From: Tubiluchus corallicola | Taxonomy: Eukaryota; Priapulida; Priapulimorpha; Priapulimorphida; Tubiluchidae | Assembly (NCBI GenBank): GCA_030141605.1 | Contig: JAQGDQ010000994.1 | Location: 1 to 64,000 of the forward strand | DNA length: 64,000 nucleotides | Reading direction: 5' to 3' | Part shown: piece after piece, positions 19,151 through 45,616 of the stretch | Layout: every line of letters starts with the position of its first letter | Numbering within the stretch: position 1 is the stretch's first letter | The notes under the pieces: generated by a model | Database searches by the model: none | What the model was told of the DNA's origin: nothing | Seen by the model: the letters and a program-made list of their open reading frames with translations, nothing else | Position numbers and translations under genes: made by a program

Positions 19151-19285
19151 ATGATTTTGGTAATTGAGCAACTCGGTTATCTGAAATCACGAGCAAGAAA
19201 GTTCAAGTTTAGTTTAGAAACAAGCAAATCTGTCAGAAGTTTGACTACAGAGAATTTGGGTCACGCTGTACAAATTCTTCAGTAA
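19151..19285 (+). other. open stretch of 44 codons, possible orphan exon
   Basis: ATG at 19151 opens MILVIEQLGYLKSRARKF and ends with HAVQILQ then TAA. Alternatively it splices at GTAAGT (19282). Amino-acid content looks protein-like, but I recognise no family and see no good upstream acceptor. Confidence 0.25.
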
Positions 19286-20851: not shown

Positions 20852-20993
20852 TCAATTATGCTGAGTTATTTGAATCAATTATCAACAGTTTTTATATACA
20901 TTTCAATAGGAGCGGCTCGTACCAGACGTTTTTGAGTCAATTAGGCAACTGATGCTTTTAACCGCGAGTCTAATAAATGGCACCTGCTGTATC
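20852..20993 (+). repeat. interspersed repeat, copy 1
   Basis: Shared with 22811-22955: TCAATTATGC(A/T)GAGTTATTTGA, GTTTTTATATAC, TAGGAGCGGC(C/T)CGTAC and GACGTTTTTGAG. Class unknown; the copy at 22.6-22.9 kb is preceded by pogo-like GGTTTGCCGGACCTCGC. Confidence 0.6.
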
Positions 20994-21169
20994 TTCCCTT
21001 AAAGTAGCAAGAAAGAGGCGTAAGATAACAAGTGACTTACAAAGAGTTAAGAGGCTGCAGCGTTGAGCCCAAATCGGATCCAACCAAACTGACCGATACC
21101 AACACAGGTGTGATCAATAAAATAAATAAAAAACCAGTAAATAAAAAATAGAAAAAGATAAGATTTTAC

Positions 21170-21344
21170 CCGCTGCACTGATACGTCAGCTTCGTCTTCA
21201 AGTTCCTGAACTTGCCGTTTGAGCTGTTCTTCAACGGCAGCATGATTGCCTATTGAAGCTTCCATAACGTGCTGCCGCCTTGTGGTCTTTTCTAGCTTTT
21301 CCATAACAGAAGCATTGTGCGATTGGGAGACTTTTAATCTACGT
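21170..21344 (-). CDS. SDCCAG8: SDCCAG8 exon 13
   Basis: Acceptor AATTGTCAG precedes 21344 and donor GTAAAA follows 21170. It encodes [20 protein letters not shown], then [19 protein letters not shown]. Read-through past the donor would end at a stop near 21047, so a retained-intron terminus is possible; the expected last exon was not found. Confidence 0.82.
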
Positions 21345-24300: not shown

Positions 24301-27300
24301 TAACCTCACAAACAATTAGACAAGTAGTGAAACAAACATATAGCCTAACGAACAATTAGACAAGTAGTCAAACCAACATTTAACCTAACGAACAATTAGA
24401 CAAGTAGTGAAACAAACATTTAACCTAACGAACAATTAGACAAGTAGTGAAACAAACATTTAACCTCACAAACAATTAGACAAGTAGTCAAACCAACATT
24501 TAACCTAACGAACAATTAGACAAGTAGTGAAACAAACATATAGCCTAACGAACAATTAGACAAGTAGTCAAACCAACATTTAACCTAACGAACAATTAGA
24601 CAAGTAGTGAAACAAACATTTAACCTCACAAACAATTAGACAAGTAGTGAAACAAACATATAGCCTAACGAACAATTAGACAAGTAGTCAAACCAACATT
24701 TAACCTCACAAACAATTAGACAAGTAGTGAAACAAACATATAGCCTAACGAACAATTAGACAAGTAGTCAAACCAACATTTAACCTAACGAACAATTAGA
24801 CAAGTAGTGAAACAAACATTTAGCCTCACAAACAATTAGACAAGTAGTCAAACCAACATTTAACCTCATAAACAATTAGACAAGTAGTCAAACAAACATA
24901 TAGCCTAACGAAAATTAGACAAGTAGTCAAACAAACATATACCCTAACGAACAATTAGACAAGTAGTCAAACAACCATTTAACCTAACGAACAATTAGAC
25001 AAGTAGTCAAACCACCATTTAACCCAACGAACAATTAGACAAGCAGTCAAACAAACATTTAACCTAACGAACAATTAGACAAGTAGTCAAACAACATTTA
25101 ACCTAACGAACAATTAGACAAGTAGTCAAACCACCATTTAACCTAACGAACAATTAGACAAGTAGTCAAACCACCATTTAACCTAACGAACAATTAGACA
25201 AGTAGTCAAACAACCATTTAACCTAACGAACAATTAGACAAGTAGTCAAACCACCATTTAACCTAACGAACAATTAGACAAGTAGTCAAACAACATTTAA
25301 CCTCACAAACAATTAGACAAGTAGTCAAACAAACATATAGCCTAACGAACAATTAGACAATTAGTCAAGCCACCATTTAGCCTAACGAACAATTAGACAA
25401 TTAGTCAAGCCACCATTTAACCTAACGAACAATTAGACAAGTAGTCAAACCACCATTTAACCTCACCAACAATTAGACAAGTAGTCAAACCACCATTTAA
25501 CCTAACAAACAATTAGACAAGTAGTCAAACAAACATATAGCCTAACGAACAATTAGACAAGTAGTCAAACCAACATTACTCACAAACACTTAGTCAAATA
25601 AACATTTAGCCTCACAAACAATTAGACAAGTAATCAAACAAACATATAGCCTAACAAACAATTAGACAAGTAGTCAAACAAACATATAGCCTAACAAACA
25701 ATTAGACAAGTAGTCAAACAAACATATAGCCTAACAAACAACTAGACAAGTAGTCAAACCAACATTTAACCTCACAAACATTCAGCATCACATACAATTA
25801 CGCTGTTCAAGCTGTTCTATTACAGTCCTAAAGTCTGCTAGCCGTTGTTCATATTTCTGTGAGACAGTTGACAAGGTGTCTTGATTACGGTGCTCACTCT
25901 GCTCCATGTGTTTCTTAAGAGCAGCCACCTAAGAGGAATGATACAGAAAAATATTTTTACTTATTACTAAATAATTGTTTATATGGACGTTATTGCACGT
26001 GATTTTTGTATTAGGAAAAATGGCATTAAATCGTACCTACTGAAATTGTGAAAGAACCAGTAAAAACACGTGACCTCTAAGAAACTAATTAATCAAATTT
26101 TGAGGTGTTTGACACTTTTTACTAACTGATATCACTCGTCATACACAGATTAAAATGTTTGCATGGGCATTTTCCTCATTAGCAAACGCAATGGCCGACT
26201 TGTGAGAATCTAGTATAGTAGTGGAGTGGTTGAATGTTTATAGTCTCAAAAATGACTGTAGATTGTTCCAGGACTGGACAGTTTCAAAAAATATGAAAGC
26301 TACAAAATGTTCCTTGCATGTCAATATTTTTGGGATCTTTGGTGGATTACTGATCAAATAATGCGAATCAATCATTTGTTATTTTGTTTAAAGTTGCTCA
26401 ATGCTTCGTCTTTTATACACTCATGCTAGCTTTATTGAATTGTGGAAATAGCTATAAAATTATTCAAGATTTTTAAAAAAATGTGACATTTCGTTTGTAA
26501 ACGTTTTCACTGAATATGCATTTCTGAAAGTGAACCGATTTCCCGGAGACTCCAATATGAATGGAAACTGTCGGAAGTGTCACCACTCGTGCTTTTTGTC
26601 ACTAAAGTCACCACCACTAAGTCACTTTCAACTTCGTCCTTTTTCTCCTTTCTTTTTCAAAACCAGCATCCAAGGAAATGTCTACAAAACACTAATGTTT
26701 GTGGCAAGACTGGAGCCTAGTTTCTTATCAAGACAAACTCTAAGATGAGCCAAGAACATCCCTCTACGATGTAAACAGCCAGAATCTGCATGTAAACGAA
26801 GCCGCCCAGAGTCAGCACGGAAGTCACTCATCCATCAACTGATCGACTTCAGTGCTGATTATCTTCGGTTGAGAAGAGCAGAAAACATGAACGTAAATGA
26901 TTTAAATATGCAGAAGATGAAACCAGAGAAATAAACACTTGCCTCCCTTTCCAATCTACTGGCTTCTTCCGTTGCTCTGATGCTACTTTCTCTCACTTTC
27001 AATGCATCCTTTTCCGACACCTCCAACTGGCTTCGCAAATTTTGAATGATGATACTGAGCTTCTCTCTCTCCTAAATAACAGCAATTTATACACATCATC
27101 CCAATTTCATTGGAACAGCAATGGGAATATGATGAACAAATCGTCAGTTTTTGCTGATAACGGCAACGGTTCTTTAGCACTGTGTGAACATGTACAGTTG
27201 TTCACACACGACAACCTTCCAAATATGATTTACAAACTGTACCAACTATTGCCTTTCGATTGTCACTTCATAAAAATAAAATGTGTTAAATTTATGTGGG

Positions 27301-30084
27301 AATAAAAAGAAATCAAATTTGAAGCAAAACTAGAAAGCATGAATAATTTGTGAACTTGATTTTGCACGTATAAATACTATATGAAATGACCAGACGGTTT
27401 AGTCCAGTGGTAACGCACCCGCTTTCCATCTGGGAGGTCGTGAGTTCGAACCAGCGGCCGGGTAATACCAAAGACTTTAAAAATGGTACCTGCTGATGCC
27501 CTGTCTGACACATGGTATTTAGGGTAAAAGTGGGGTAATAATAGTCTCTGTTATGTAGTTGTAGATTGTTATTTACAGTCGGCGATACTAGCTCTTTGAG
27601 CTAATGTTAATTGTTGACCCAAAAGCCGACTTTAAATAAAGATTATTATGATGATTATTATTATTTTATTATTATTATTATTATTATGGAAAGTAACTTT
27701 GTCTTATATTAGTAAATAAAAGGCCTATGTAACTCCAACAGACACTGAAGTTTTTTAACGTCTTATCATGATTATGCAAAGAATTCATAGTTATTATTAA
27801 ACAAAAGAGACTTATCAGTTAAATAACTTAGCCTTCTCTAGCGAATTTCGAATGCGTGCATTGCAGTAAAGATCGCCATGTTTCCCATCTTTGACGCGAG
27901 TGAGCGAGAATGACATAAGAAGTCAGAAAACATCTTTGGCTACCAATGTTTGTTTACCGATCTTTGGTGAGCTCGTGACTGTACTCATGACGTCATTCGT
28001 CTCGTGACTGTACTCATGACGTCATTCGTCTCGTGACTGTACTCATGACGTCATTCGTCTCGTGACTGTACTCATGACGTCCTTCGTCTCGCGACTGTAC
28101 TCATGACGTCGTTCGTCTCGTGACTGTACTCATGACGTCCTTTGTCTCGCGACTGTACTCATGACGTCGTTCGTCTCGCGACTGTACTCATGACGTCATT
28201 CGTCTCGCGACTGTACTCATGACGTCGTTCGTCTCGCGACTGTACTCATGACGTCATTCGTCTCGCGACTGTACTCATGACGTCATTCGTCTCGCGACTG
28301 TACTCATGACGTCGTTCGTCTCGCGACTGTACTCATGACGTCATTCGTCTCGCGACTGTACTCATGACGTCGTTCGTCTCGTGACTGTACTCATGACGTC
28401 ATTCGTCTCGTGACTGTACTCATGACGTCATTCGTCTCGTGACTGTACTCATGACGTCATTCGTCTCGTGACTGTACTCATGACGTCATTCGTCTCGCGA
28501 CTGTACTCATGACGTCGTTCGTCTCGTGACTGTACTCATGACGTCGTTCGTCTCGCGACTGTACTCATGACGTCATTCGTCTCGTGACTGTACTCATGAC
28601 GTCATTCGTCTCGCGACTGTACTCATGACGTCATTCGTCTCGCGACTGTACTCATGACGTCATTCGTCTCGCGACTGTACTCATGACGTCATTCGTCTCG
28701 CGACTGTACTCATGACGTCGTTCGTCTCGTGACTGTACTCATGCCATCATTCGTAATGGGTTAAGAAACATGGGTTCTTTTTTTCGCACAAATTTAACAC
28801 CAAATTTTAACACACACATAGAAAATCAGAAGAAACAAGTTTTACAGAAAGTTTATAATAAAATAAATTTTATATTCGTAATGAGGGTGGGATTTTACGT
28901 TGCAAAAGTTTATATTATAGTGAAGGTTCAGTTTGACTTGACAATGAAAATGCTGAACTTTTCTACATATAACCACTATTCCAGCAGCTGAGACACTTAC
29001 CTGCATTGCGATGTTCTCTGCTTCCTTAGCCAAATGTTTCTCTTTGGTCACTTCCTGTAACGCCAGCGTCCTTTCCCGTTGTGCTTGCACAATCTCACTC
29101 TTCACTCTTTCAGCATCCTGTAAAATTCAATGATGCGATGTGAGCTATAGTTTAAACTAAGATCTCTAACGAAACCAGTACTTAACTGGCCGTATTCTCC
29201 AACTATTGGCTTCATTCATCTGAATGTTGACTCACTTCTGATGGTAAAAAGTCTTAGATTGTCATTATTAGTCGCTGTCCATCATGGTTAATTATTTTCG
29301 TTATTTAACAAAAAAAATGTAATAAAGTTTTCACTTTGATTTTTAATTAAGTTTCTCAACATGTTTAACAATGTAGCAGGAGTAATAGATTTCCTGATAA
29401 ATTCTGGTTAGCACACGTACACTATAAACCTACAATCAAATATGTCTGCTTGAAGAGAATGAAATAAAATTGAATGAAACAGAATAGAATAGAGAGCAAT
29501 AGAAGGGGAGAAAGGAAGAGAGGGTAGAGAAAAGAGAAAGGAAGGGAGATGAGGGGAGGAGAGAGTGGAGAATGGAGAGGAGAGAAGTGAAGAGCAGAGC
29601 AGGGAAGGGAAGGGAAGGGAAGAACAGAGCAGAACAGTGAAGCAAAGGGAGGGGAGGGGAGGCGAGGAGAGGAGAGGAGAGGAAAGGAGAGAAGAGAAGA
29701 GAAAAGAGAGAAGAGAAGAGAAAAGGAGGGGAGGGGAGAGGAGAAGGGAAGGGAAGAGCAGAGCAGGGCAGGGAAGGGAAGGGAAGGGAAGGGAAGGGAA
29801 GAGAAGAGAAGAGAAGAGAAGAGAAAAGGAGAGAAGAGAAGAGAAGAGAAGAGAAGAGAAGAGAAGAGAAGAGAAGAGAAGAGAAGAGAAGAGAAGAGAA
29901 GAGAAGAGAAGAGAAGAGAAGAGAAGAGAAGAGAAGAGAAGAGAAGAGAAGAGAAGAGAAGAGGAGAGAAGAGAAGAGAAGAGAAGAGAAGAGAAGAGAA
30001 GAGAAGAGAAGAGAAGAGAAGAGAAGAGAAGAGAAGAGAAGAGAAGAGAAGAGAAGAGAAGAAGAGAAGAGGAGAGAGAGAAAG

Positions 30085-30150
<66 letters not shown>

Positions 30151-33100
30151 AAGAGAAGAGAAGAGAAGAGAAGAGAAGAGAAGAGAAGAGAAGAGAAGAG
30201 AAGAGAAGAGAAGAGAAGAGAAGAGAAGAGAAGAGAAGAGAAGAGAAGAGAAGAGAAGAGAAGAGAGAAGAGAAGAGAAGAGAAGAGAAAAGAGAAGAGA
30301 AGAGAAGAGAGAAGGGAAGGGAAGCGAAGGGAAGGGAAGGGAAGAGAAAAAATAATAGAACTAAACAGAGTAAAATACAAAAGAATGGAATAAAATACAT
30401 GTAAAATAGAAATTTATTTTATCTAGACAGATAAAAACATAATTTCCGTTGCAAAGCAAAAGGAAAATAGTTGATTATATTACAAACACAACATATCAAA
30501 CACTTACAGTGAAATTTAAGCATTTTAAATATAAAGAGGTATTAACATAAACGATTGTATATTTTACCCGAGACAAGTTTTCTTGAGATCGTCTGATGGA
30601 GTCTTTTGATTGTTCCAGCTGTTTTAAGAAACTGACCTTCTCACGACTGACCTTGTCCAGTTGACACTGAGCTGCAGCCAGAGCAGCGTTTGACTCAGAC
30701 AGCTAGTAAACAAAAATCAATCATTTATAAACTAACTTTCTTTGTGTCTGCTTGTCAAGTTGAAAATGCAGCATTTCACTCACATAGCTAGCACAAAAAA
30801 TCAATAAATTCTTCAATAAATGACTTTCTAGGGACCGACTTTGTCTAGTTGACACTGTGTAGCAACCAAAGCAGCATTTGACTCAGAAACTGGGAAGTAT
30901 AGCTCAATGGTAGCGTGCTTGCTTTCCACCTGGGAGGTCGCGGGTTCAACTCCTGACCGAGTCATACCAAAGACGTGAAAAATGGAACTGCTGGTACTTC
31001 GACCAAGCACGGGGGTTTATCGATTTACCATGCAGATAATAATAATTGGGACCACCTTGGAAATAAGTATCGAGTTACTTAAGGTGTTATCTCTGGACTC
31101 AACAAAATTATTAATATTATTGTTGTTGTTTCAGTTGTCGTTGTCATCATAATTATTATTATTATTACTACTACTATTACTATTACTATTACTATTACTA
31201 TTACTATTACTATTACTATTATTATTATTATTATTATCATCATCATCATCAACATCGTCATCATCATCATCATCATCATCATTATTATATCTAGTAAAAA
31301 AACAATTATTAATGGGCCAATATAAATGTGTATATAAAAAGTAAAATGAATTAATTCAGTTTAAATAGCCCTTGGTTAACACATGAGTAAAGAATTATAA
31401 GCAGACCTGTCCAACAGTAAATGTCTAACATGGAAGACACTTTTCTACATACGCACAGTTCAACGTTGAAAAATAACATCAACCCACAAACGTAAAAACT
31501 ACTACAATAAACTTCGTCGTGATGATTAATATTAACGCGTTTTCTGTTGTGAAGTCTTGTTTTTCATGAGCATGAAAAGAACAAAGTAAAAGAGATACTG
31601 GCACAAATAAAATTTAAGCACTTATTTAAATTGTAAAACTGCCTGAAATGATTACAATCACTGTTCCTTCTACCATTCTTTTCCATAAATTCCTGCACTG
31701 ATTCGTTGAGGGACTTATCACATGTTCCTTTGGGGTTAAATCTTGAATGTGTGTCAGTTTGCCCAATGTAAGTGAAACTACAATCCATACAACAGCTTCA
31801 TTGACAAACAACAGTAGAATATAACAACAGCTTCATTTACAAATAATAGTAGAATATAACAACAGCTTCATTTACAAACAATAGTAGAATATAACAAGAG
31901 CTTCATTTACAAACAATAGTAGAATATAACAACAGCTTCATTTACAAACAACAGTAGAATATAATAGCTTCATTTACAAACAATAGTAGAATATAACAAC
32001 AGCTTCATTTACAAACAATAATAGAATATAACAACAGCTTCATTTACAAACAATAGTAGAATATAACAACAGCTTCATTTACAAACAATAATAGAATATA
32101 ACAACAGCTTCATTTACAAACAATAGTAGAATATAACAACAGCTTCATTTACAAACAATAGTAGAATATAACAACAGCTTCATTTACAAACAATAGTAGA
32201 CTATAACAACAGCTTCATTTGCAAACAATAGTAGACTATAACAACAGCTGATACCGAATCATCAATTCCAATTTCTGTTTTACAAAAATGGCTGTGTAGG
32301 ATATAAGAAAGCACAAAATGAGACAAATAAAAAGATTAAGGTTACCCGTAATTCAATTTGCTCCACTTCCCGCTTTCCCTCCTGCCGGACCAACTCCCGC
32401 TCGTGCTCCACGTGCACCTCCATCTCTTGAATCATGGCACCCATTCTCTCCCGTAATCTTTCCATTTCTGATCTCACCTGGTCCTTTTCCATCAATGCCT
32501 TTGCACAACAGAAAAACTGAGTTTGAATAGCGCAAAACAAAATACAACATACATAATACATGCAACAAAATACAACATACATAATAGATGCAACAAAATA
32601 CATAATACATACTACATGCAACAAAACACAACATACATAATACATGCAACAAAATACAACATACATAATACATGCAACAAAATACATGATACATAATACA
32701 TGCAACAAAATACATAATACATGATACATGCAACAAAATACATAATACATACAACAAAATACACAATATGTGCAACAAAATACAAAATATATAATACATG
32801 CAACAAAATACATAATACATGCAACAAAATACAAAATACATAATACATGCAACAAAATACATAATACATGCAACGAAATGCATAATACATAGACTCATTC
32901 TAACACGATCACAGCTTTAATCACATCTAACATTTCACGAAGAAAAAATTTTAACTAATGAACATCATAACGAAAATTGTTAGGGAAAAACTTCTGATTC
33001 TCAAAGCTGTGAAAACGTTATTAAGTTATACAACTAGAAATTGACATTGCAGTGCTATGAGCGTAGCAGAAGAAATTAACTCATAAGCCACGATCAACAT

Positions 33101-36100
33101 GGATAAGTCTTAATTATCGGCAAGAAACAACACAAAATGCATTAAACAGATGTGTATCTATGTACCTGATAGTATAGATGTTACAATATAATTCCTCGTG
33201 ACTTGTTAAGGATTGTTTTTTTATTTGATTGTAAAAGCTAACAGGCTTAATACTTGTGGGCAAAGTTTAATTCAGTAACACCTCTCCCACCTGTTTCCAT
33301 GCCCAAGAGAATCATACAGCCTGACCTACCTACCTACCTGTGCTTTTTCAACCTGTGCTTGTTCAACTAACTCTAAGCTTCTGTTCACGTGATGCTGACC
33401 TACCTACCTGTGCTTTTTCAAGCTGTGCTTGTTCAACTAAGTCTAAGCTTCTGTTTACATGATGCTGAGCTACCTACCTGTGCTTTTTCAACCTGTGCTT
33501 GTTCAACTAACTCTAAGCTTCTGTTCACGTGATGCTGACCTACCTACCTGTGCTTTTTCAAGCTGTGCTTGTTCAACTAAGTCTAAGCTTCTGTTTACAT
33601 GATGCTGACCTACCTACCTGTGCTTTTTCAAGCTGTGCTTGTTCAACTAACTCTAAGCTTCTGTTTACATGATGCTGAGCGTTTTCATCGCATTTCTTCA
33701 ACTCTGCAACCGTTGTCCTCAGGCTTGTAACCAGAGCCAGCGCCTCGTCCCTTTCACTAAACAAAATAACGGCAGCCGTTATACAAGGCCTTAAATTATC
33801 AACATCTAAACACTTGTAAGTTAACCAGTGTGGCTGCGCCCAGTCCAGGCAAAGAAACAACAAGAATTAGTATTGAACTGTGCGATAGACCTGCAATTTA
33901 TTAAAATAACAGATCGCAAAAAGTGCTTAAGAACATGCTAAAGGTTATTACTATTTAGACAAAATAAAAAATTAGATTTAAGAAGACTGAAACACAAATT
34001 ATTACTTCATGATTCTAGAGATTTGAAGCAATTCTAGCCAATTTAAACTATTAACTAATTATTAAAGTAGATGGTGACTTACATTTACTGGTGACAACTT
34101 TAGCTTGAAAATACAACTAGTGACTGTTAAATTGTAACAAAATAGACAAAACAATGCAAGTATCACCAAACGGCATGATCAGCATAGCGGCAACAGAAAA
34201 TCTAACTACGTGTAAAAACAACTGTGATTGATAGGTGGCGTATATTACTAAGGCTTAGGTCACGTGACTAAGGCTGGCTTCGTTTTAAACACTTTTAGGA
34301 AATGCATGTTTGTAAAAATACGAAAAAAACAAATAATTATGGAATGCTAGATTAAATTACTTGACACCAACATCCAGTAAATTAAAAAAAAAATAACTCA
34401 GTTTCCATGAGAGAGAAAGAAAAAACAAAGACAAATTCCATTACATAAGTGGAACCTTGTTACAACTGAAACTCGCTACAGTCGACCATCGTTAAACCGG
34501 ACCCCGTTTAACGGATAAGACGGACGTCAACCGTGGTAAAGGAAACTGACCGATTTCCGACCCGGTCACGGCCTACCAACTCACCACGATATACATATAC
34601 TATACTTTTTATTATTTAAACTGTACAATAATTTCTTTATCCTCACAGGTTAACTATTTTAAAGTAATATACAGTATACTATATAGTGCACAGTATATAG
34701 TGCAATGTATGTAGGCCTTATTAAGGTGATTATTCCTGTATAATATAGACCATATATAGGCATATCGGATAAATCGGACAATCAGCTAAACCGGACCCCC
34801 CCCCCAATTAGTCCGGTTTAACGAGGGTTGACTGTATTTACTCGCTTGAGAAACAAGAAATGCAAAAAAGTGCTACTAAAACTCTAATTCAATGTACCAA
34901 AATGCGTCATAACAAACACAAAATTGCAGTTACATTCAGTTACGCTTCACTAGATCTTTCCGCTGTATGAAAGTTGCAAACAGAGCAAAATAAACCCTCC
35001 CAAATAAGCCTTTTCACAGTTTCATTGTGCGCACGTACTGTTGCTATAGATCAAAGGCTAAGTGTACCACAGCAACGCGTTCTTAACTACAACTGCCACC
35101 TGACATGTGGGTAAAGCAAAGCCTTTTGCCACATCGGTTCAGTAACTTCAGTTGTTTTACCTAGATGTTACTTAACTATGCATTAGTCTGTGCATAGAGT
35201 GATTTACTAGCAGGACCTTGTTTGTGAACAAGAAAAATGAACTAGGCAAGATTCTAGCTAGCTGTTAAAACTGTTACTATTAGAGGCGCATAGGCTGTGA
35301 AGGCATTGTCGAGTGTACACAAATGCGTTGGCTGGCTACAGTTAACCTTTGACCTTTTCACGATCATCATCAATCGCTGGAACTTTGAAAAGGCTTGTTA
35401 GATCGTCAATCCCTTGTTTAGGCAATGTGTTACATGCCAATGTCTTAAACGTATGTAAATTTGTCTTAAACAATGTCTAAAGCATACCTAATAAGTTTAG
35501 TTATCTACCTTGTAAGTTTCTCGATTGTCTCTTCATGTTTCGGGAGGGTTATTACAGGTAACGAAGCCTGTTCGTTCGCACACTTGACACAGAGTTTGGC
35601 TTCAAACTGACCTTTGCCAGCTTTCATCAGTGCTAACTCGTAGGATTTCAAGCGAGCCGTCAGACTGATGTTGTCTGATTCCGCTTTATTGTAATCATGT
35701 TTCATTCTCTGTAGCTGCGCTTCCAACCGTTCATTCTTCACAATGTGCAGGTTGCGAATAACTGCCTAAAAATACATGTTTGCATGAGTATAATTGCCTA
35801 AAAATACATGTTTGCATGAGTATAACTGCCTAAAAATGCATGTTTGAATGAGCATAACTGCCTAAAAATGCATGTTTGAATGAGTATAACTGCCTAAAAA
35901 TGCATGTTTGAATGAGTATAACTGTCTAAAAATGCATGTTTGAATGAGCATAACTGTCTAAAAATGCATGTTTGCATGAGTATAACTGCCTAAAAATACA
36001 TGTTTGAATGAGCATAACTGCCTAAAAATGCATGTTTGAATGAGTATAACTGCCTAAAAATGCATGTTTGCACGAGTATAAATGTCTAAAAATACATGTT

Positions 36101-39100
36101 TGCATGAGTATAACTGTCTAAAAATGCAGGTTTGAATGAGTATAACTGCCTAAAAATGCATGTTTGAATGAGTATAACTGCCTAAAAATACATGTTTGCA
36201 TGAGTATAACTGTCTAAAAATGCATGTTTGCATGAGTATAACTGCCTAAAAATGCATGTTTGCATGAGTATAACTGCCTAAAAATGCATGTTTGCATGAG
36301 TATAACTGCCTAAAAATACATGTTTGAATGAGCATAACTGCCTAAAAATGCATGTTTGAATGAGTATAACTGCCTAAAAATGCATGTTTGAATGAGTATA
36401 ACTGTCTAAAAATGCATGTTTGCATGAGTATAACTGTCTAAAAATGCATGTTTGCATGAGTATAACTGCCTAAAAATACATGTTTGCATGAGTATAACTG
36501 CCTAAAAATGCATGTTTGAATGAGAATAACTGCCTAAAAATGCATGTTTGAATGAGTATAACTGCCTAAAAATGCATGTTTGCACGAGTATAACTGTCTA
36601 AAAATACATGTTTGCATGAGTATAACTGTCTAAAAATGCAGGTTTGCATGAGTATAACTGCCTAAAAATACATGTTTGCATGAGTATAACTGCCTAAAAA
36701 TGCATGTTTGAATGAGCATAACTGCCTAAAAATACATGTTTGCATGAGTATAACTGCCTAAAAATACATGTTTGCATGAGTATAACTGTCTAAAAATGCA
36801 GGTTTGCATGAGTATAACTGCCTAAAAATACATGTTTGCATGAGTATAACTGCCTAAAAATGCATGTTTGCACGAGTATAACTGTCTAAAAATGCACGTT
36901 TGCATGAGCATAACTACCTAACAATACATGTTTGCACGAGTATAACTGTCAAAAAATGCATGCTTGCATGAGTATAACTGTCTAAAAATGCAGGTTTGCA
37001 TGAGTATAACTGCCTAAAAATACATGTTTGCATGAGTATAACTGCCTAAAAATGCATGTTTGCACGAGTATAACTGTCTAAAAATGCACGTTTGCATGAG
37101 CATAACTACCTAACAATACATGTTTGCACGAGTATAACTGTCTAAAAATGCACGTTTGCATGAGCATAACTACCTAACAATACATGTTTGCACGAGTATA
37201 ACTGTCTAAAAATGCATGTTAGCATGAGTATAACTGCCTAAAAATGCATCTTAGCATGAGTATAACTGCCTAAAAATGCAGGTTTGCATGAGTATAACTG
37301 CCTAAAAATGCATGTTTGCACGAGTATAACTGTCTAAAAATGCACGTTTGCATGAGCATAACTACCTAACAATACATGTTTGCACGAGTATAACTGTCAA
37401 AAAATGCATGCTTGCATGAGTATAACTGTCTAAAAATGCAGGTTTGCATGAGTATAACTGCTTAAAAATACATGTTTGCATGAGTATAACTGCCTAAAAA
37501 TGCATGTTTGCACGAGTATAACTGTCTAAAAATGCACGTTTGCATGAGCATAACTACCTAACAATACATGTTTGCACGAGTATAACTGTCTAAAAATGCA
37601 CGTTTGCATGAGCATAACTACCTAACAATACATGTTTGCACGAGTATAACTGTCTAAAAATGCATGTTAGCATGAGTATAACTGCCTAAAAATGCAGGTT
37701 TGCATGAGTATAACTGCCTAAAAATACATGTTTGCATGAGCATAACTGCCTAAAAATGCATGTTTGAATGAGCATAACTGCCTAAAAATGCATGTTTGAA
37801 TGAGCATAACTGCCTAAAAATGCATGTTTGAATGAGCATAACTGCCTAAAAATGCATGTTTGAATGAGTATAACTGCCTAAAAATGCATGTTTGAATGAG
37901 TATAACTGCCTAAAAATGCATGTTTGAATGAGCATAACTGCCTAAAAATGCATGTTTGCATGAGTATAACTGCCTAAAAATGCATGTTTGAATGAGTATA
38001 ACTGCCTAAAAATGCATGTTTGAATGAGCATAACTGCCTAAAAATGCATGTTTGAATGAGTATAACTGCCTAAAAATGCATGTTTGCATGAGTATAACTG
38101 CCTAAAAATGCATGTTTGAATGAGCATAACTGCCTAAAAATGCATGTTTGCATGAGTATAACTGCCTAAAAATGCATGTTTGAATGAGTATAACTGCCTA
38201 AAAATGCATGTTTGAATGAGTATAACTGCCTAAAAATGCATGTTTGCATGAGTATAACTGCCTAAAAATGCATGTTTGAATGAGTATAACTGCCTAAAAA
38301 TGCATGTTTGCATGAATATAACTGCCTAAAAATACATGTTTGCATGAATATAACTGCCTAAAAATACATGTTTGCATGAATATAACTGCCTAAAAATACA
38401 TGTTTGCATGAGTATAACTGCCTAAAAATACATGTTTGCATGAGTATAACTGCCTAAAAATACATGTTTGCATGAGTATAACTGCCTAAAAATACATGTT
38501 TGCACGAGTATAACTGCCTAAAAATACATGTTTGCATGAATATAACTGTCTAAAAATACATGTTTGCATGAGTATAACTGCCTAAAAATACATGTTTGCA
38601 TGAGTATAACTGCCTAAAAATGCATGTTTGCACGAGTATAACTGTCTAAAAATGCACGTTTGCATGAGCATAACTACCTAACAATACATGTTTGCACGAG
38701 TATAACTGTCTAAAAATGCATGTTAGCATGAGTATAACTGCCTAACAATGCAGGTTTGCATGAGTATAACTGCCTAAAAATACATGTTTGCATGAGTATA
38801 ACGGCCTAAAAATGCATGTTTGCACGAGTATAACTGTCTAAACATGCACGTTTGCATGAGCATAACTACCTAACAATACATGTTTGCACGAGTATAACTG
38901 TCAAAAAATGCATGCTTGCATGAGTATAACTGTCTAAAAATGCAGGTTTGCACGAGTATAACTGCCTAAAAATACATGTTTGCATGAGTATAACTGCCTA
39001 AAAATGCATGTTTGCACGAGTATAACTGCCTAAAAATACATGTTTGCATGAATATAACTGCCTAAAAATACATGTTTGCATGAGTATAACTGCCTAAAAA

Positions 39101-42100
39101 TGCATGTTTGCATGAGCATAACTGCCTAAAAATACGTGTTTGCATGAGCACAACTGTCTAAAAATACATGTTTGCATGAGCATAACTGCCTAAAAATACG
39201 TGTTTGCATGAGCACAACTGTCTAAAAATACATGTTTGCATGAATACAACTGCCTAAAAATACGTGTCTGCATGAGTACAACTGCCTAAAAATACATGTT
39301 TGCACGAATATAACTGCCTAAAAATGCATGTTTGCATGAATATAACTGTCTAAAAATACATGTTTGCACGAATATAACTGCCTAAAAATGCATGTTACAT
39401 GTTTGCATGAGTATAACAGCCTAAAAATACATGTTTGCATGAGTATGACTGCCTAAAAATACATGTTTGCATGAGTATAACTGCCTAAAAATACATGTTT
39501 GCACGAGTATAACTGCCTAAAAATACATGTTTGCACGAGTATGACTGGCTAAAAATACATGTTTGCATGAATATAACTATCTAAAAATACATGTTTGCAT
39601 GAGTATAACTGCCTAAAAATACATGTTTGCACGACTATGACTGCCTAAAAATACATGTTTGCACAAGTATGACTGGCTAAAAATACATGTTTGCATGAGT
39701 ATAACTGCCTAAAAATACATGTTTGCACAAGTATGACTGGCTAAAAATACATGTTTGCATGAATATAACTATCTAAAAATGCATGTTTGCATGAGTATAA
39801 CTGCTTAACTGTCTATATGAGGAAAACACGAGCGTATGTGAATAATTGCCTGTTAGTACTTATGCTTACGAGAATAACTGCTCAAAAATTTATCTGTGTG
39901 CAAATAACCGCCTGTGATGACATGAACATAACAGAATATTTGCACAAAAATACGTCTAAATGCAAATATGTATTACTTTGCATATATAAATGCGAAGTAA
40001 AAACCTTTTCGAAGAAATATAAATACAAATTTACAACAATTTACGTAAAAAACTGGTAACAAACAGCGTAATAAACAAATATTTTATACCAATTCTTCCT
40101 TCCATTTTGCAGCAGTAAATGCTGCAACAGATGGAGTTGTTTTCTCTGGTCCTTCAAGACCCTGAAAACAAATTAGTTATGAAGCAATTAGCAACTGGCA
40201 GTTACGTAATATTTTGTTTGCTAAAAGGCCCAGGAAAGCTTTCTTTTGGCAAACAAATTTAGACAAATGTGCAGCAAGTTTTAATACAGCATTTCACACT
40301 AAGCAATTACGACATATAATGTGCCTAGGACTGCCTACATAGCAGATGATTATTGAAACCGGGAATTAGTAGTGGGACGTCCCAGAAGTCTCTTCAATAG
40401 AACTCAAAAGCAGTGCCTTTTTAAAGGTTTTTGAAAACTATTCTTAAGAAAACAGATTTTAAAAAATCTTGCCAAATTTTAAAACTGTCAGTTCCACATT
40501 AACTGACAATTAAAAAAATCACAAAATTTACCAATTTAATTTTAAACAAGAAATACCAGTAACCAAAATTAGGGTTTCTTAAGGCAAGATTTGCCAAGGT
40601 TTTACCAAATACTGGTTCGAATATTTCGGAGACAAAGACGAAATTCTGATCAATGTAGGTTAATCATCAACTAAATTGCTTAAGAAATGAATTTTAAATT
40701 TTAATGATTATGACGAAACACCAAAGTTACTCCAAAAATCTTTTATGATTTTAACAAAGCGGACGGACAATTTTACCAATGTACTACATTGTAACGACTT
40801 CAAGCAAAGTTGAGTAATTTAAATCAGTAAAATCCACATAACTTAATTACAAAAGTTTATCAATAAAGACGTTTAAAAATGTTTAAAAAAACATCTTTCC
40901 GACTTGTCGACGTCCCTTCAACGGCCTTCTCCTCCTACACACCTCTCACACTGGTGCACTGCCTCAAGATGATGCATCACTAACTACGACCCTCAAACAA
41001 TTACACATGACTATGTTTCCACGACGACAGATGAGTGAACAGCTGATATAATCAACATGACACAATTTTGATAAGTCTACTAAAATTTTCAGCTGTATCA
41101 AGTTCAAAATTTTGTAATCAACATGTAAAACAAACAGTCTAACTTACCTCGGGTACGTTTATTACTCCTGTTGAACTTACCCCGGGTACGTCTATTACTC
41201 CTGTTGAACTTACCCCGGGTACGTCTATTACTCCTGTTGAACTTACCCCGGGTACGTCTATTACTCCTGTTGAACTTACCCCGGGTACGTCTATTACTCC
41301 TGTTGAACTTACCCCGGGTACGTCTATTACTCCTGTTGAACTTACCCTGGGTACGTCTATTACTCCTGTTGAACCTACCCCGGGTACGTCTATTACTCCC
41401 GTTGACATGTGTGTCTTGATTGTATCCATGAGTTTTCTGTTTTCCGCAACGAGTCCGCTCGTGCCCCTGCCAAGATTCGTTAGTTGCTCCTGGATGAATA
41501 CAAACACACAATAACACAATAGTTATTAAAAAAGTTGGCAAACACAAATTTATTGGTGACGACTGCTTCAGTAAAGTAGAGAACACCCAAGCACCATACG
41601 CGTAAGATGCGGAGTTACAGGTGTGTGTCCGAAGCCTTCTCCAGAAAAGTTTTGAAAAATCAAAGCCAATTTCCTTGTGTTTGGGTTCATTTTGGATGTT
41701 TTAAGCCCAAACATTAAGCTGAACATTTTCACCAAACAGCGATAAAGTAAAAAGTGGTATCATTACAGTACATGCATACTGGCCATTCACATTTCTAAGG
41801 TATCTGAAGTGAGTTATGAAGATCCAAGAGAGGAAGTGAGTGATAACAATTAGATGAGAAATGATGAAAATCATATTAGTCAAGAAAAGAGCTCTGAAAT
41901 GCATTAACATTTTTCTGATATTTGCCACAAAATTTTAGGGAAATGTTTACGTGGAGCACATTCTGGAGTTTGCAAGAAAATGCCCTGTTATGTTAAATGT
42001 AAACAAATTTATGTAAACCTTACAAGTAGGGCTATTTAGAAAGTCCGAGTATAATTTTTATAAGGTATGTGATATTTGGGCATGAGACATTTGGGCACTA

Positions 42101-45100
42101 ACAAAATTTGATATTTTACCCATTTTTTTTACTTTTGCTCATTATATTTTTAATGATTCACTATTTTCCTAACTGTCATAATGTTTAATAGCACAATTAA
42201 AACCAGTTGATTGTCTTTCTGCACTTTCTCCACTTTCAGTATTAGTCTATGTGCAGTTAATGAACAAAGCATGTCAGTATCTATAACAGCGAGATTAAGT
42301 TGTACATTATTAGCAACAGTTTACCGACAGAAAAAGTCAACCAGCATTTCCAGACTGTTCTAAGCAAGCTGGACAATAACCTAATGTTACCATGCAACTA
42401 TTCATCAAGCACTTGGTGTCCTTTGACTTATGTTGTTTATACTAGTGGCCAGGGGCGTATTAAGAAATAGGCTGAGGAGGCTACGGCCTAGGGCGCCAGA
42501 GTTTGAGGGGCGTCACTGTTGTGTTTCTTTCTCTCGGACGACTCGTAGAGAAAACCAGAAAACACTTTGTCAAATTAAACTGGTTTATTGTGTGAGAATT
42601 CTACAACGCACAAGTATGAAGGAACGCGAAATATACCCAGTCAAGTGAGAAGAAAATCTGAGAATCTGAAATTAATCTGAGAATACGAGAATTAAATTTG
42701 AACGGCCAGCTCCGCCTTATATGTCAATGCACATGGACTAAACCAGAACAATCTAGAAACTACTATGCGCATCGCGTATAGAAAGTTCTCGAATCTTCTA
42801 CAAGGTTGCTACAAGAAGATTGTTCTACTATACTATAGAATCTCCACAACAGTCACACTTTAGAAAAAATTCTTATTCTCCTTGGAAAATATGTGTACTT
42901 TCATATTCATGTAAAGGGTGTATTTTATAACACGCCACAGGCACTTACTGAAGCAGCTTTTATATAAGTGCCACATAACAAACAGGTGCAAAGTTTTACA
43001 CAACAAACTAGGAAGCTTGAATATAAGCGCTATGCAAATACATTTTAGTAATAATGACCACATAGAAACTAGGTTAATAGTGTTTTTAATACACCACAAA
43101 TAATTGTTTAATCTCCTCATTACATAGTAATTCACAATAGAGGTGGGAGGGAGAGAATTATCTGCCTCGGTTGCCGTAAAGTCTTGATACGCCCCTGCTA
43201 GCGGCATATTCAAGAAAAGTAGGTCAATTAACAAGAAAAAATGCTTAATACATAACTTTCACTTTCAAGATAAAACTTTTTCATTTCATCTCTTGTGAAA
43301 TGTTCCGCAGCAGAGTTTTTTATACATGGTAAGTGTTATAGTTATTTCTAGTGTCAATTACAGGATCGTATTCAGGAAAATAATTATTTATTTGCTTATA
43401 AAAACTTTAGGTAATTTAAACAAACAAAGAAGTTGTACCTAATCAGCCAACCAGAGACATCGTGTTTCGTAGCGCAAAGCAGAAATTATTTGCTCAGTCA
43501 AGCACAGCCAACTCAGGTGCCTAAATGTTTCATGCGGAAACTGCCAAGCGAAAAATGACCCGACCCCTTTTCAAAAGCCTTGATGACTTTCACAACAGGA
43601 CAGAAATTCACCAGGAACAAAAAGTAGACCCCGAGAGGCTAAGTGAGGGTCATTTCACTGATCTTTCATGAAGCACACAAAAAAATTATAAATTACAAAA
43701 CTAATTCTCAACTAGCAGTCTACACTACGCTTAGACCACATATGGTTTCAACATTTAAAATATTACACCTTGTAAACCATTTCTTACAAACTGTAGTTAA
43801 ATTAAAATGTATTGTAGTTAAATTAGAATGTGTGACTACTGCAGAAAACAGAAAAAAGTTGAACATGATTTGTGAATTGCCAAAAATTTTAAAAATTTCT
43901 AATCTCTGAAAGCAATAAAAACAAGGCAATAATGAAATAGGCAGTACTTATTAAAACAATGACTAATGTTTAAAAGCAACACGTGGGGTACATACCTGTA
44001 ATTCACTATTCTCACTCTCAAGCTGTTGAATATAGGCAGCTTGTTGTTGTAATAATGGTACCAACTCCACTGATGTTGGAATGTCTTTACCGGAAGACTC
44101 CTGCAGATAAAATTAACTTTTTATTCTTCTAGTAAAATTAACATACAATGAATGCGTCAATCTATTACAAAAACAGTTAAGTAGTTTCTAATCAACCAGA
44201 CAGTTTAGTCTAGTGGTAATGCGTCTGCTTTCCATCTCTGAGGTCGTGAGTTCGAACCAGCGACCGGGTCATACCAAAGACCTTAAAAATGGTACCTGCT
44301 GTTGCCCTGCCCGACGCGGGGTATTTAGGGCAAAAGTGGGGTAATAATAGTCTCTGTTATGTAGTTGTAGGTTGTTATTTACAGTTGGCGATAATGGCTC
44401 TTTGAGCTAATGTTAATTGTTGACCCAAAAGCCGACTTTAAATAAAGATTGTTATTATTATTATTAATGAGTATCGCACCTGTGTGATCACCTTAGGTAG
44501 GTACGTGAAAAATAAATGCATAAGCACTCGGTCAAAAATCCCACTCAAACAAAAACTATAGAGAGAAAAACCCCGGGGATGATGACTGTTGTCAGCAACT
44601 TTGGATGCAAATGATTATTTTTTATTTTACTATCCGAGAAAATAAACAGGAGGAGCTAGGCAGGTACATACTTTGCCCCAAGTTTAAATATTATCTCAAA
44701 ATTATCGACACAAGTATGTTCATGAAGTTGTTTGTGTTAAAGCATCTTTCTAAATTGATGTATTGTTACCTAGATAGAAACAAAGAACAGGCGAATTAAA
44801 ATATGTGCATAATTATTAGAAGTAATTTACATGGTTTTTACATAATGATATTTACAATGACGATATGAAAGTAATAGTATTAACACATATTCGTATACAA
44901 GGTATGTATACATATATTGGTCTATTACATCATAAAGACCTAAATACGTTTTTGTATAACTTATTAGTTGATGATAATAAATGTGTCGACAAAACCTATA
45001 ATGTTATTGTGTCCATTATATTACTAGATTAAAACAATAATATAAAATAGTCAGTCATACCGATTGACCTGCGTGCAAGGATATCCTTGATAAGGAGCTG

Positions 45101-45616
45101 GGAGATAACATAACTTATTAAACATGGCCTGATTCACTAACAAGGCAGGACGTCTAAGATGAGCAGATCATCAGGTACATAAGCACATGCAAGCAAGCAG
45201 AATCAGTACGCCCAAAGAAAACACCCATAGTAAGTATCAAAACAGTTTACCCATTCAGTTGTTTAAGCAGACGCTGTGCCAATCCTAACTTCGGTTGCCA
45301 ATCACAACACCGTGACAACTCGGCTGTGTCACTATGTCGCTAAAGTGATAAACATATTATAATTTCAATGCTTATTGCCCATAAGCAAGATATTGTACAA
45401 TATCAGAGTACTACGCAGTTTACTATGCCTGATTACCGAGGTTAAAAATCAATAGTTAGTTGGCAGTGAATAAAAAACTGTTTGATTTGCAAATACCTGA
45501 GGCTGAAGCTCTCCCACCGGTTGTTTACGGGAACCATCTATCTTATGTGTCATTGCTTGTGTTAGCTGTTCTCTGAGCTTTTTTGCGTTTTCAGATAAGC
45601 CGCGGCTGACTGCCAT
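21170..45616 (-). CDS. SDCCAG8: SDCCAG8 orthologue, centrosomal/ciliary coiled-coil protein, 13 exons, 3' end not found
   Basis: Exons in transcript order: 45616-45497, 44100-43996, 41489-41379 (or longer), 40161-40090, 35765-35509, 33756-33618, 32498-32346, 30702-30568, 29117-29001, 27071-26943, 25928-25796, 22452-22335, 21344-21170. All phases match. The protein is almost entirely coiled coil. The order of landmarks follows vertebrate SDCCAG8: [17 protein letters not shown], then LCVKCANEQ with IEKLT and ERDEALALV, then [19 protein letters not shown], then a [20 protein letters not shown] block near the C-terminus. In vertebrates the protein sits at centriole distal appendages/centriolar satellites and acts in ciliogenesis; loss causes ciliopathy. 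A short final exon is expected left of 21170 but I could not find it. Introns span 24 kb, mostly tandem repeats. It starts about 660 bp from the gypsy element and is divergent to CCDC34. Confidence 0.88.
21402..21532. repeat. GT/GC alternating microsatellite
   Basis: Runs of GTGTGTGT mixed with TGCATGCG, alternating purine-pyrimidine. SDCCAG8 intron 12. Confidence 0.95.
21664..22325. repeat. 23-bp minisatellite, about 28 copies, SDCCAG8 intron 12
   Basis: Unit AACAAAGGTAAACAAACTCC plus TTG. Ends about 10 bp from the exon 12 donor, whose GTAAGTTTGTT resembles the unit's complement. Confidence 0.93.
22335..22452 (-). CDS. SDCCAG8: SDCCAG8 exon 12
   Basis: Acceptor GTTTTTAG precedes 22452 and donor GTAAGT follows 22335, leaving phase 2. 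It encodes [18 protein letters not shown] and then [17 protein letters not shown], matching the SQNxFLxKLKEEC region of vertebrate SDCCAG8. Confidence 0.88.
22811..22955 (+). repeat. interspersed repeat, copy 2
   Basis: Second copy of the 20852-20993 repeat, in SDCCAG8 intron 11. Confidence 0.6.
23335..25785. repeat. 40-bp minisatellite, about 61 copies, SDCCAG8 intron 11
   Basis: Unit ACAATTAGACAAGTAGTCAA plus ACCAACATTTAACCTAACGA. Three or so sub-types alternate in regular order, so multi-unit blocks have been copied. It runs up to the exon 11 donor. Confidence 0.96.
25796..25928 (-). CDS. SDCCAG8: SDCCAG8 exon 11
   Basis: Acceptor CTCTTAG precedes 25928. It encodes [20 protein letters not shown], then [20 protein letters not shown]. 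The donor is best placed at GTATGT after 25796, leaving one base, which fits exon 12. The 40-bp array begins about 10 bp beyond the donor. Confidence 0.82.
26943..27071 (-). CDS. SDCCAG8: SDCCAG8 exon 10 with GC-AG donor
   Basis: Acceptor TTATTTAG precedes 27071. It is 43 codons, phase 0: [20 protein letters not shown], then [20 protein letters not shown]. The donor is GCAAGT directly after GAG, the standard non-canonical GC-AG type; no GT site nearby keeps the frame. Confidence 0.85.
27389..27688 (+). mobile_element. tRNA-headed SINE, copy 1
   Basis: A-box-like TTTAGTCCAGTGGTAACGC and B-box GAGTTCGAACC, then a tRNA-unrelated body, ending AATAAAGATTATTATG and an ATT tail. Nearly the same sequence recurs at 44195. 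In SDCCAG8 intron 9. Confidence 0.85.
27971..28755. repeat. 29-bp minisatellite, about 27 copies, carrying CRE palindromes
   Basis: Unit CTCGTGACTGTACTCATGAC plus GTCATTCGT. Around two thirds of units hold TGACGTCA, the full CREB/ATF site; the others have TGACGTCG or TGACGTCC. SDCCAG8 intron 9. Confidence 0.95.
29001..29117 (-). CDS. SDCCAG8: SDCCAG8 exon 9
   Basis: Acceptor TTTTACAG precedes 29117 and donor GTAAGT follows 29001. It is 39 codons, phase 0, encoding [19 protein letters not shown] and KEAENIAMQ. Coiled coil. Confidence 0.88.
29505..30352. repeat. 850-bp polypurine tract (GAGAA)n and (GA)n
   Basis: The plus strand is nearly all G and A: GAGAAGAGAA repeats, an inner (GA)n run at 30088-30146, and GGGAA variants at both edges. 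SDCCAG8 intron 8. Confidence 0.97.
30568..30702 (-). CDS. SDCCAG8: SDCCAG8 exon 8
   Basis: Acceptor TTTACTAG precedes 30702 and donor GTAAAA follows 30568. It is 45 codons, phase 0: [19 protein letters not shown], then [20 protein letters not shown]. It aligns with the vertebrate block LSxNxAxLxAxVEKVxxEK. Two decayed copies of its 5' half lie just upstream (30747-30891). Confidence 0.9.
30747..30891 (-). pseudogene. two decayed duplicates of SDCCAG8 exon 8 (5' half plus acceptor)
   Basis: 30833-30891 reads [18 protein letters not shown], against [18 protein letters not shown] in the real exon, then a stop. 30747-30803 is a more decayed copy that keeps GCTAG and the upstream AAAAATCAA. The SINE at 30892 lies where the acceptor of the outer copy should be. 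Confidence 0.8.
30892..31290 (+). mobile_element. tRNA-headed SINE, diverged copy 3
   Basis: TATAGCTCAATGGTAGCGTG and GCGGGTTCAACTCC are close to true tRNA A and B boxes, followed by GTCATACCAAAGACGTGAAA as in the other copies. It ends in long ATT/ACT/CAT microsatellites (31125-31287). It abuts a decayed duplicate of SDCCAG8 exon 8. Confidence 0.75.
31788..32250. repeat. 35-bp minisatellite, about 13 copies, SDCCAG8 intron 7
   Basis: Unit CAGCTTCATTTACAAACAAT plus AGTAGAATATAACAA, for example cttcattt at 31866 and 31901. Confidence 0.93.
32346..32498 (-). CDS. SDCCAG8: SDCCAG8 exon 7
   Basis: Acceptor TGTGCAAAG precedes 32498 and donor GTAACC follows 32346. It is 51 codons, phase 0: [20 protein letters not shown] and then [21 protein letters not shown] strong charged coiled coil. 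The acceptor lacks a pyrimidine immediately before AG, a weak site. Confidence 0.88.
32540..32893. repeat. ACATAATACATGCAACAAAA array, SDCCAG8 intron 6
   Basis: Variable units of about 23-37 bp built from CATAATACATGCAACAAAAT. Confidence 0.9.
33332..33690. repeat. 70-bp tandem repeat of SDCCAG8 exon 6 end and its donor, 5 copies
   Basis: GATGCTGA occurs at 33391, 33461, 33531, 33601 and 33671. The rightmost unit is the real exon end; each other unit repeats about 50 bp of coding sequence plus GTAGGTAGG. Confidence 0.95.
33618..33756 (-). CDS. SDCCAG8: SDCCAG8 exon 6
   Basis: Acceptor TTGTTTAG precedes 33756 and donor GTAGGTAGG follows 33618. One base plus 46 codons encode [20 protein letters not shown] and then [17 protein letters not shown]. 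The last part of the exon and its donor are repeated four more times at 70-bp spacing in the intron. Confidence 0.9.
34451..35397 (+). mobile_element. composite repeat, second copy, carrying a nested Tigger-like MITE
   Basis: 34451-34478 plus 34837-35005 correspond to 5485-5680, and 35007-35397 is the AAGCCTTTTCACAG-ended element. The Tigger-like insertion at 34479-34834 interrupts it. In SDCCAG8 intron 5. Confidence 0.78.
34479..34834 (+). mobile_element. pogo/Tigger-like MITE inserted in an older repeat
   Basis: 356 bp with inverted ends CAGTCGACCATCGTTAAACC and CAGTCAACCCTCGTTAAACC (reverse complement of the right end), flanked by TA on both sides. The same host repeat without this insertion is present at 5490-5680, with the empty TA at 5510-5511. 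Confidence 0.88.
35509..35765 (-). CDS. SDCCAG8: SDCCAG8 exon 5 (LCVKCANEQ block)
   Basis: The acceptor TATTTTTAG precedes 35765 and the donor GTAGAT follows 35509, leaving phase 2. The exon encodes [20 protein letters not shown] and then [13 protein letters not shown]. The latter matches the cysteine-containing LCLKCA segment of vertebrate SDCCAG8, the strongest single clue to the gene's identity. The first eight bases of the exon are repeated about 125 times upstream in the 32-bp array. Confidence 0.92.
35765..39805. repeat. 32-bp minisatellite, about 125 copies, made from the SDCCAG8 exon 5 acceptor
   Basis: Plus-strand unit GCCTAAAAATGCATGTTTGC plus ATGAGTATAACT. On the minus strand each unit reads TATTTTTAG then GCAGTTAT, identical to the real acceptor and the first eight exon bases. 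Fills 4 kb of intron 4, with block-wise sub-types. Confidence 0.96.
40090..40161 (-). CDS. SDCCAG8: SDCCAG8 exon 4
   Basis: Acceptor TGTTTTCAG precedes 40161 and donor GTATAA follows 40090. It is 24 codons, phase 0, encoding [20 protein letters not shown] and KEEL. It is short and poorly conserved; accepted because sites and phases fit and it lies between two sure exons. Confidence 0.7.
41142..41400. repeat. 33-bp minisatellite of exon end plus donor, 8 copies, SDCCAG8 exon 3
   Basis: Plus-strand unit ACTTACCCCGGGTACGTCTA plus TTACTCCTGTTGA. Each unit holds one donor on the minus strand. Confidence 0.96.
41379..41489 (-). CDS. SDCCAG8: SDCCAG8 exon 3, minimal form; seven further in-frame donors extend it to 41148
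   Basis: The acceptor CATCCAG precedes 41489. The shortest form is 37 codons ([20 protein letters not shown] then [17 protein letters not shown]) and ends at 41379 before GTAGGT. Seven copies of the last 33 bp follow, each ending in GTAAGT, with possible exon ends at 41346, 41313, 41280, 41247, 41214, 41181 and 41148. All are phase 0 and the frame is open throughout, so each step would add 11 residues ([11 protein letters not shown]). Confidence 0.8.
42450..43197 (+). mobile_element. hAT-like non-autonomous DNA transposon
   Basis: Ends are CAGGGGCGTATTAAGA and its complement TCTTGATACGCCCCTG. Flanks are CTAGTGGC (42442-42449) and CTAGCGGC (43198-43205), an 8-bp target duplication with one change. 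The CAGGGGCG start and 8-bp duplication are hAT hallmarks. No transposase frame is present in 748 bp. Lies in SDCCAG8 intron 2. Confidence 0.85.
43996..44100 (-). CDS. SDCCAG8: SDCCAG8 exon 2
   Basis: Acceptor ATCTGCAG precedes 44100 and donor GTATGT follows 43996. It is 35 codons, phase 0, encoding [20 protein letters not shown], the equivalent of the N-terminal coiled-coil start in vertebrate SDCCAG8. Confidence 0.88.
44195..44467 (+). mobile_element. tRNA-headed SINE, copy 2
   Basis: TTTAGTCTAGTGGTAATGCG and GAGTTCGAACC as promoter boxes; body and tail align with copy 1 (AAAGCCGACTTTAAATAAAG then ATT repeats). In SDCCAG8 intron 1. Confidence 0.85.
45497..45616 (-). CDS. SDCCAG8: SDCCAG8 exon 1 (start codon)
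   Basis: ATG at 45616-45614 opens [20 protein letters not shown]. It runs 40 codons to donor GTATTT after 45497, phase 0. Chosen as the start because the frame is clean and the peptide continues smoothly into exon 2. Confidence 0.8.

Follow-up and report, generated by a model that had tools for sequence, protein, structure and literature searches.

What does a gene do with eight near-identical 5′ splice sites at the end of a single exon? The question is raised by exon 3 of SDCCAG8 in Tubiluchus corallicola, at whose 3′ end a tandem repeat carries one donor per unit. A first-pass annotation had described this exon as an accordion, able to lengthen or shorten the protein by donor choice, and had called a protein whose length is set by a splice-site VNTR something it had not met before. 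We analyzed the whole 64,000-nt stretch of DNA in which the gene lies (the window, C1557:1-64000), which is part of a 343.5-Mb genome in 2344 contigs.

An array of donors at the end of SDCCAG8 exon 3

The coding model of SDCCAG8 (Table 1) was assembled from exons recognised by eye; all exon phases match and there is one terminal stop. A 224-aa part of the product matches the Pfam family CCCAP (PF15964) with 77.6 bits against a cut-off of 27 (E 8.9e-22), and the 579-aa model has seven homologs, 26-29% identical to it, in alignments that run across the joined exons and cover 85-99% of the query. The five that are named come from molluscs (Pinctada, Mytilus twice, Batillaria and Babylonia). Exon 3, which starts at 41489 directly after ...TTCATCCAG, gave no match when searched alone against Pfam. 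With the Pfam match, the in-frame model and the seven homologs behind it, the assignment of this exon to SDCCAG8 proposed in the first-pass annotation stands, and the array at its end, which lies on the minus strand, belongs to that gene. We also looked in intron 3 for an exon that the model might lack and rejected the one phase-0 candidate, whose sites are weak and which does not evidently resemble the homologs. Exon 9 ends in GAG/GCAAGT at 26937-26942 and is likely to be followed by a GC-AG intron. Elsewhere the window holds a CCDC34-like frame at 51612-52625 (plus strand; PF13904, E 2.7e-24), a 1801-codon uninterrupted open frame with two ZZ zinc-finger stretches at 56816-62221 (minus strand), which we take to be ZZEF1-like, and, upstream of SDCCAG8 at 46777-50775 (plus strand), retrotransposon-like open frames with RNase H, H2C2 and integrase core domains; a Pfam search with the first of these frames gave no match.

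Table 1. Features of the SDCCAG8 locus, in window coordinates. A slash marks a splice junction; donors follow transcript order, and the plus-strand coordinate of the G of each GT is given.
Feature	Position	Strand	Remarks
SDCCAG8 coding model	19013..44100	-	12 exons (numbered 2-13), 579 aa + stop, open
Likely exon 1	45497..45616	-	ATG, 40 codons, end CAG/GTATTT, phase 0; found by eye, without homology support
Exon 3 up to first donor	41379..41489	-	37 codons, phase 0 at both ends
Exon 4	35509..35765	-	
Exon 5	33618..33756	-	
33-bp array	41141..41405	-	8 copies, one 5′ splice site per copy; TRF
First donor	41373..41378	-	G at 41378; GGG/GTAGGT; weakest of eight, score 2.94
Second donor	41340..41345	-	G at 41345; AGG/GTAAGT; score 6.30
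Third to seventh donors	41175..41312	-	G at 41312, 41279, 41246, 41213, 41180; all GGG/GTAAGT; score 5.50 each
Eighth donor	41142..41147	-	G at 41147; GAG/GTAAGT; intron-proximal; strongest, score 7.71; least buried in predicted RNA structure
32-bp array	35758..39808	-	about 126 copies, 4 kb; unit ...CTCAT...CATTTTTAG/GCAGTTAT; TRF
70-bp array	33328..33678	-	5 copies, across exon 5 end; ...CTTGAAAAAGCACAG/GTAGGT in first copy

Analysis of 41141-41405 with TRF returned 8.0 copies of period 33 with 97% matches and zero indels, which bears out the eightfold repeat that had been reported, and chance origin of the repeat itself is ruled out beyond doubt. The reading of one GTAGGT and seven perfect GTAAGT donors was likewise correct, the former lying at 41378. 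Spliced to the exon-4 acceptor in the joined model, each of the eight donors gives an open protein, in phase 0 as claimed, and exon 3 does range from 37 to 114 codons, its length being 111 nt when it ends at 41379 and 342 nt when it ends at 41148. The description of the unit needs amendment: it is 33 bp long with the donor included, and not 33 exonic nucleotides plus a donor, since it consists of 26-27 exonic and 6-7 intronic nucleotides taken from the original junction, the exact register being uncertain by one T. Copies 3-7 are identical; copies 1 and 8 have two differences each and copy 2 has one. Unequal exchange commonly homogenizes the interior of an array in this way and may have done so here. 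The five differences, four non-synonymous and one synonymous, are too small a number to reveal coding constraint. When exon 3 and its array were searched against the assembly, nothing except the window itself matched.

That all donors are in phase 0 and open does not amount to eight observations, because the repeat is near-exact and its length is a multiple of 3. For random codons, one 11-codon unit is free of stops with a probability of (61/64)^11 = 0.59, to be multiplied by 1/3 for the length, and two frames per strand are open through the array. We therefore rejected phase and open frame as a sign of function, since a single stop-free unit of 3n nucleotides suffices to produce them.

The stretch affected by donor choice is a linker of SDCCAG8 that is variable in length between species. 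Measured from a conserved K to RLEAQL, it is 24 aa long with the first donor and 35-101 aa with donors 2-8, compared with 53-57 aa in six homologs (P0001-P0006) and 168 aa in the seventh (P0007). The first-donor linker is thus the shortest among the eight sequences compared, and the longer forms fall within the homolog range or just under it.

Other splice-spanning arrays and a second assembled copy

Intron 3 is closed by another minisatellite, with a 32-bp unit, the last copy of which constitutes the exon 4 acceptor and includes the first 8 nt of that exon. Exact TTTTTAG occurs 112 times in this array, the last occurrence being the real acceptor. In the typical unit a CTCAT lies 16 nt before the AG and looks by eye like a branch site; it is present in 85 of the 126 stretches of the array read in register. 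We joined exon 2 and exon 3 with each of the eight donors to each of the 112 exact TTTTTAG acceptors and the remaining model, 896 combinations in all. A full protein came from 8 of the 896, that is, from all eight donors, each with the last acceptor; donors are therefore free to vary and acceptors are fixed. We consider it unlikely that the fuller proposition holds in all its parts, namely that two unrelated splice-site minisatellites bracket intron 3, that stop codons and frame would leave exactly eight proteins from the 896 tested pairs, in 11-residue linker steps between two coiled-coil stretches, and that these lengths would vary between individuals with copy number.

A third array repeats the end of exon 5 and its donor, CAG/GTAGGT, five times with a frame-breaking period of 70. 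Only the first of these five donors (33617) is productive; the remaining four run into a stop after 218 codons. The protein survives only if this first donor is used, which shows that in SDCCAG8 a functioning donor can be the foremost in a run of near-equal ones. A run of donors, then, need not be an accordion, and this array is the best argument against the accordion view.

Contig C2095 carries the same region a second time, between the start of exon 8 and intron 3. Outside the arrays it aligns with the window in seven collinear blocks of 287-923 bp that are 94.7-98.3% identical, and exons 4-7, compared over 684 positions, are free of indels and show five differences, of which three are synonymous and two are not. 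Copy numbers in C2095 are 57 for the 32-bp array (L003 7090-8918; 126 in the window) and 6 for the 70-bp array (L003 4964-5375; 5 in the window). Thus two of the three splice-spanning arrays of SDCCAG8 differ in copy number between the two assembled copies, which makes copy-number variation in the 33-bp array plausible as well; copy-number polymorphism is usual for minisatellites. In C2095 the exon-5 donors are spaced by 70, 70, 64, 70 and 67 bp, so indels are present in the later 70-bp copies and absent from exon 5 itself. No collinear match between C2095 and the window was found past the far edge of the 32-bp array, and a search for exon 3 in C2095:1-30000 did not find it. C2095 may be the other haplotype, wrongly joined, or a partial duplicate. 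Within L003 7090-9260, homology with the window ends at the far edge of the 32-bp array, as a wrong join or a rearrangement would have it. Some 356 bp of intron 4 (34479-34834) are present in the window and absent from C2095 (L003 around 6167); the sequence beside them matches other places in the window, so this may be a mobile repeat.

Minisatellites with a period of 15-120 and at least 3 copies make up 25% of the window, and arrays of period 12 or more account for 13.4% of 200 kb sampled at the starts of 20 contigs, 10 kb from each (12,768 of these bases are N, and contig starts may be biased). We surveyed the units of 61 arrays in 284 kb, comprising the window, the 20 contig starts and C2095:10001-30000, with C2095:1-10000 left out. 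Donor-like units with a score of at least 5 number 3 of 61 against 1.8 expected, and 29 of 100 shuffles reach as many, so the idea that minisatellites here are generally prone to carry donors was rejected; the two top-scoring donor units among the 61 are the two that lie on real exon ends. On a home-made score, acceptor-like units reach 8 or more in 7 of 61 (2.5 expected, 0 of 100 shuffles) and 6 or more in 15 of 61 (10.0 expected, 6 of 100 shuffles). We do not rely on this excess, since the real acceptor array at 35758-39808 falls outside the best 12 of that score. Two further intronic minisatellites of SDCCAG8 have many units with T-rich stretches ending in AG (by eye); one, at 21671-22320, starts at nucleotide 15 of the intron that follows exon 11, and the other, at 23371-25780, at nucleotide 16 of the intron that follows exon 10. 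The intron before exon 2 contains a dispersed repeat of about 270 bp (44195-44466); with 40 of 1824 candidates scored, it was found in at least 39 other places, over 263-282 bp at 93-95% identity, along with one short match.

The placement of arrays in SDCCAG8 was compared with chance using 11 hand-picked arrays, a set obtained by merging overlapping TRF rows and dropping the short ones at 23312, 27642 and 43792. Three of the 11 span a splice site. In 2000 random placements with an exon overlap of up to 65 nt, the mean was 1.34 and P = 0.14; with an overlap of up to 400 nt, the mean was 3.96 and three or more were reached with P = 0.91. Five of the 11 arrays lie no more than 30 nt from a splice site (P = 0.02 with 65 nt and 0.39 with 400 nt). 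A clear excess of splice-spanning arrays was rejected, and SDCCAG8 is a fair sample of a repeat-ridden genome.

Donor choice and the origin of the array

Donors were scored on an approximate scale of metazoan donor frequencies, on which the one GC donor carried no penalty. The ten other donors of SDCCAG8 score between 0.11 and 8.63, and because even the weakest array donor outscores five of them, no array donor is disqualified. In the predicted RNA fold, the mean unpaired probability is 0.39-0.40 for the last donor versus 0.20-0.28 for the other seven, and adjacent 33-bp copies pair around CCCGGG (by eye). The 390-nt stretch folds with z = -2.49, and 1 of 100 shuffles folds as well. According to PMC5585400, SRSF1 favors intron-proximal and hnRNP A1 intron-distal 5′ splice sites, and after SRSF1 knock-down 1445 human genes showed activation of the intron-distal site and 427 that of the intron-proximal site. 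Strength, accessibility and nearness to the intron together suggest that the last donor is the principal one; since SRSF1 and hnRNP A1 pull in opposite directions, other outcomes are possible.

The interpretation given in the first-pass annotation is thus supported in part: gene, exon, donors and phase are as it described them, and alternative donor use is a prediction. Based on these results we favor, with a confidence that we would call about even, an interpretation of the 33-bp array as a tolerated by-product of minisatellite formation, spliced mainly at its last donor and giving shorter in-frame proteins as minor forms. The founding event was probably one 33-bp tandem duplication across the boundary of exon 3 and intron 3, as suggested by a unit that holds the exon end and the first intron nucleotides. 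The duplication would then have expanded to an eight-copy minisatellite within a genome rich in such arrays. Every copy would bear a usable-looking phase-0 5′ splice site, any of which U1 snRNP could bind. The last, intron-proximal donor would be used most and would produce a 114-codon exon with a repeated 11-residue stretch, and the other donors would supply the shorter minor forms. Two things would make such an array tolerable: its 33-bp unit is divisible by 3, and the SDCCAG8 linker varies in length. It would have been born as a repeat by-product, presumably neutral, and not as an evolved length switch; with the minisatellite coverage found in the window and in the contig-start sample, no special cause is needed.

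Use of the first donor (41378) alone, with copies 2-8 as an ordinary intronic minisatellite and the protein unaffected, appears somewhat unlikely. The exon-5 array is just such a case, in which one of five donors, the first, is productive and in which C2095 shows indels in the later copies and none in the exon. The first exon-3 donor, on the other hand, is the weakest of the eight and the sole one that is not GTAAGT, with seven stronger sites within 231 nt downstream, and the linker that it gives would be shorter than in all seven homologs. The converse, a long constant exon made from the last donor only, whose length would vary by copy number alone as in a coding VNTR, would agree with the strength and accessibility of that donor and with the tendency of SRSF1 to favor intron-proximal sites (PMC5585400). 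Six GTAAGT donors lie upstream of it and score 5.5-6.3 against its 7.71, which makes exclusive use improbable, and we give this alternative little credence.

We also regard as highly unlikely a selected and regulated accordion, in which donor choice would make the coiled-coil linker longer or shorter according to tissue or stage, and in which heritable length variation would follow from copy number. All eight donors are indeed in frame and sit at a length-variable linker, but any stop-free unit of 3n nucleotides gives that phase and openness. The two other splice-spanning arrays of the gene yield unproductive products, so nothing suggests design, and neither the count of donor motifs nor that of the three splice-spanning arrays rises clearly above chance. 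An assembly error, be it a wrong copy number or an array joined to the wrong sequence, would be in keeping with the agreement of C2095 and the window up to the 32-bp array only, which means that one of the two is wrongly joined or rearranged there. The order of exons 2, 3 and 4 in the window is open and the homologs cover 85-99% of the model, so it is C2095 that lacks exon 3; moreover, the 33-bp copies are not all identical (five of eight are) and the array edges are unique sequence. We consider an error of this kind extremely unlikely.

Under the favored interpretation of a tolerated by-product with minor forms, as under any in which several donors are used, the array would offer eight near-identical, evenly spaced 5′ splice sites in a naturally occurring series, weak first and strong last, and with it a ready test of position versus strength among competing donors. 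The five exon-5 donors spaced by 70 bp, of which the first alone gives protein, would serve as a matched control in the same gene. With donor and acceptor arrays around intron 3 and this control two exons further along, the locus is better suited to such a test than the 33-bp array by itself. In genomes of which at least a tenth is minisatellite, many splice-site arrays are to be expected, which bears on annotation and on heritable variation in protein length.

Comparison with known systems

The accordion exon is not of a new kind: a minisatellite with multiple splice donors was reportedly described in 1995 by Turri, Cuin and Porter (NAR 23:1854) in the human gene 6-16/IFI6, and UBC offers a relative. 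In IFI6, as described in PMC4526556, two downstream repeat units act as donors and give rise to three mRNAs, and minisatellite units are placed, as in SDCCAG8, as 5′ splice sites of one exon. Several donors are thus reported in use in IFI6, whereas in SDCCAG8 such use is predicted. As we interpret this description, donor use in IFI6 is at the upstream end of the array, which counts against a preference for the last donor in SDCCAG8.

The human UBC gene is described by Duan et al. 2024 (PMC10809524) as a tandem array of dual-specific sites that is spliced to a variable number of monomers. Like the SDCCAG8 array, it is a tandem coding repeat in which every unit bears a splice site, and splicing there alters the number of units in the protein, as donor choice would in SDCCAG8. 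Each AGGT of UBC, according to the same authors, serves as a 5′ or a 3′ site and whole monomers are spliced out, whereas the acceptor of SDCCAG8 lies elsewhere; AG/GT is present in one of eight SDCCAG8 copies, and a dual-specific array of the UBC type was rejected. Competition between adjacent donors of one exon is also seen at RBM10 exon 10, with two donors one codon apart, and at DOK7 intron 4, with two donors 11 nt apart; unlike SDCCAG8, each is described with two sites and no repeat array. A tandem duplication that bears on splice sites is likewise known from potato RdRp, for which PMC4974935 reports intron gain by this route; in SDCCAG8 the donor of an existing intron has been multiplied, and we infer no new intron.

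By its anatomy, an array at an exon boundary with a consensus-like donor in 8 of 8 copies and isoforms in frame with all 8, the SDCCAG8 array would be placed with IFI6, in a class of donor minisatellites that is already known. It differs from IFI6 in its unit of 33 bp, compared with 12 bp, in the up to 77 extra residues that it could encode, in the gene and phylum that carry it, and in an intron that also ends in an array of acceptor-like units.
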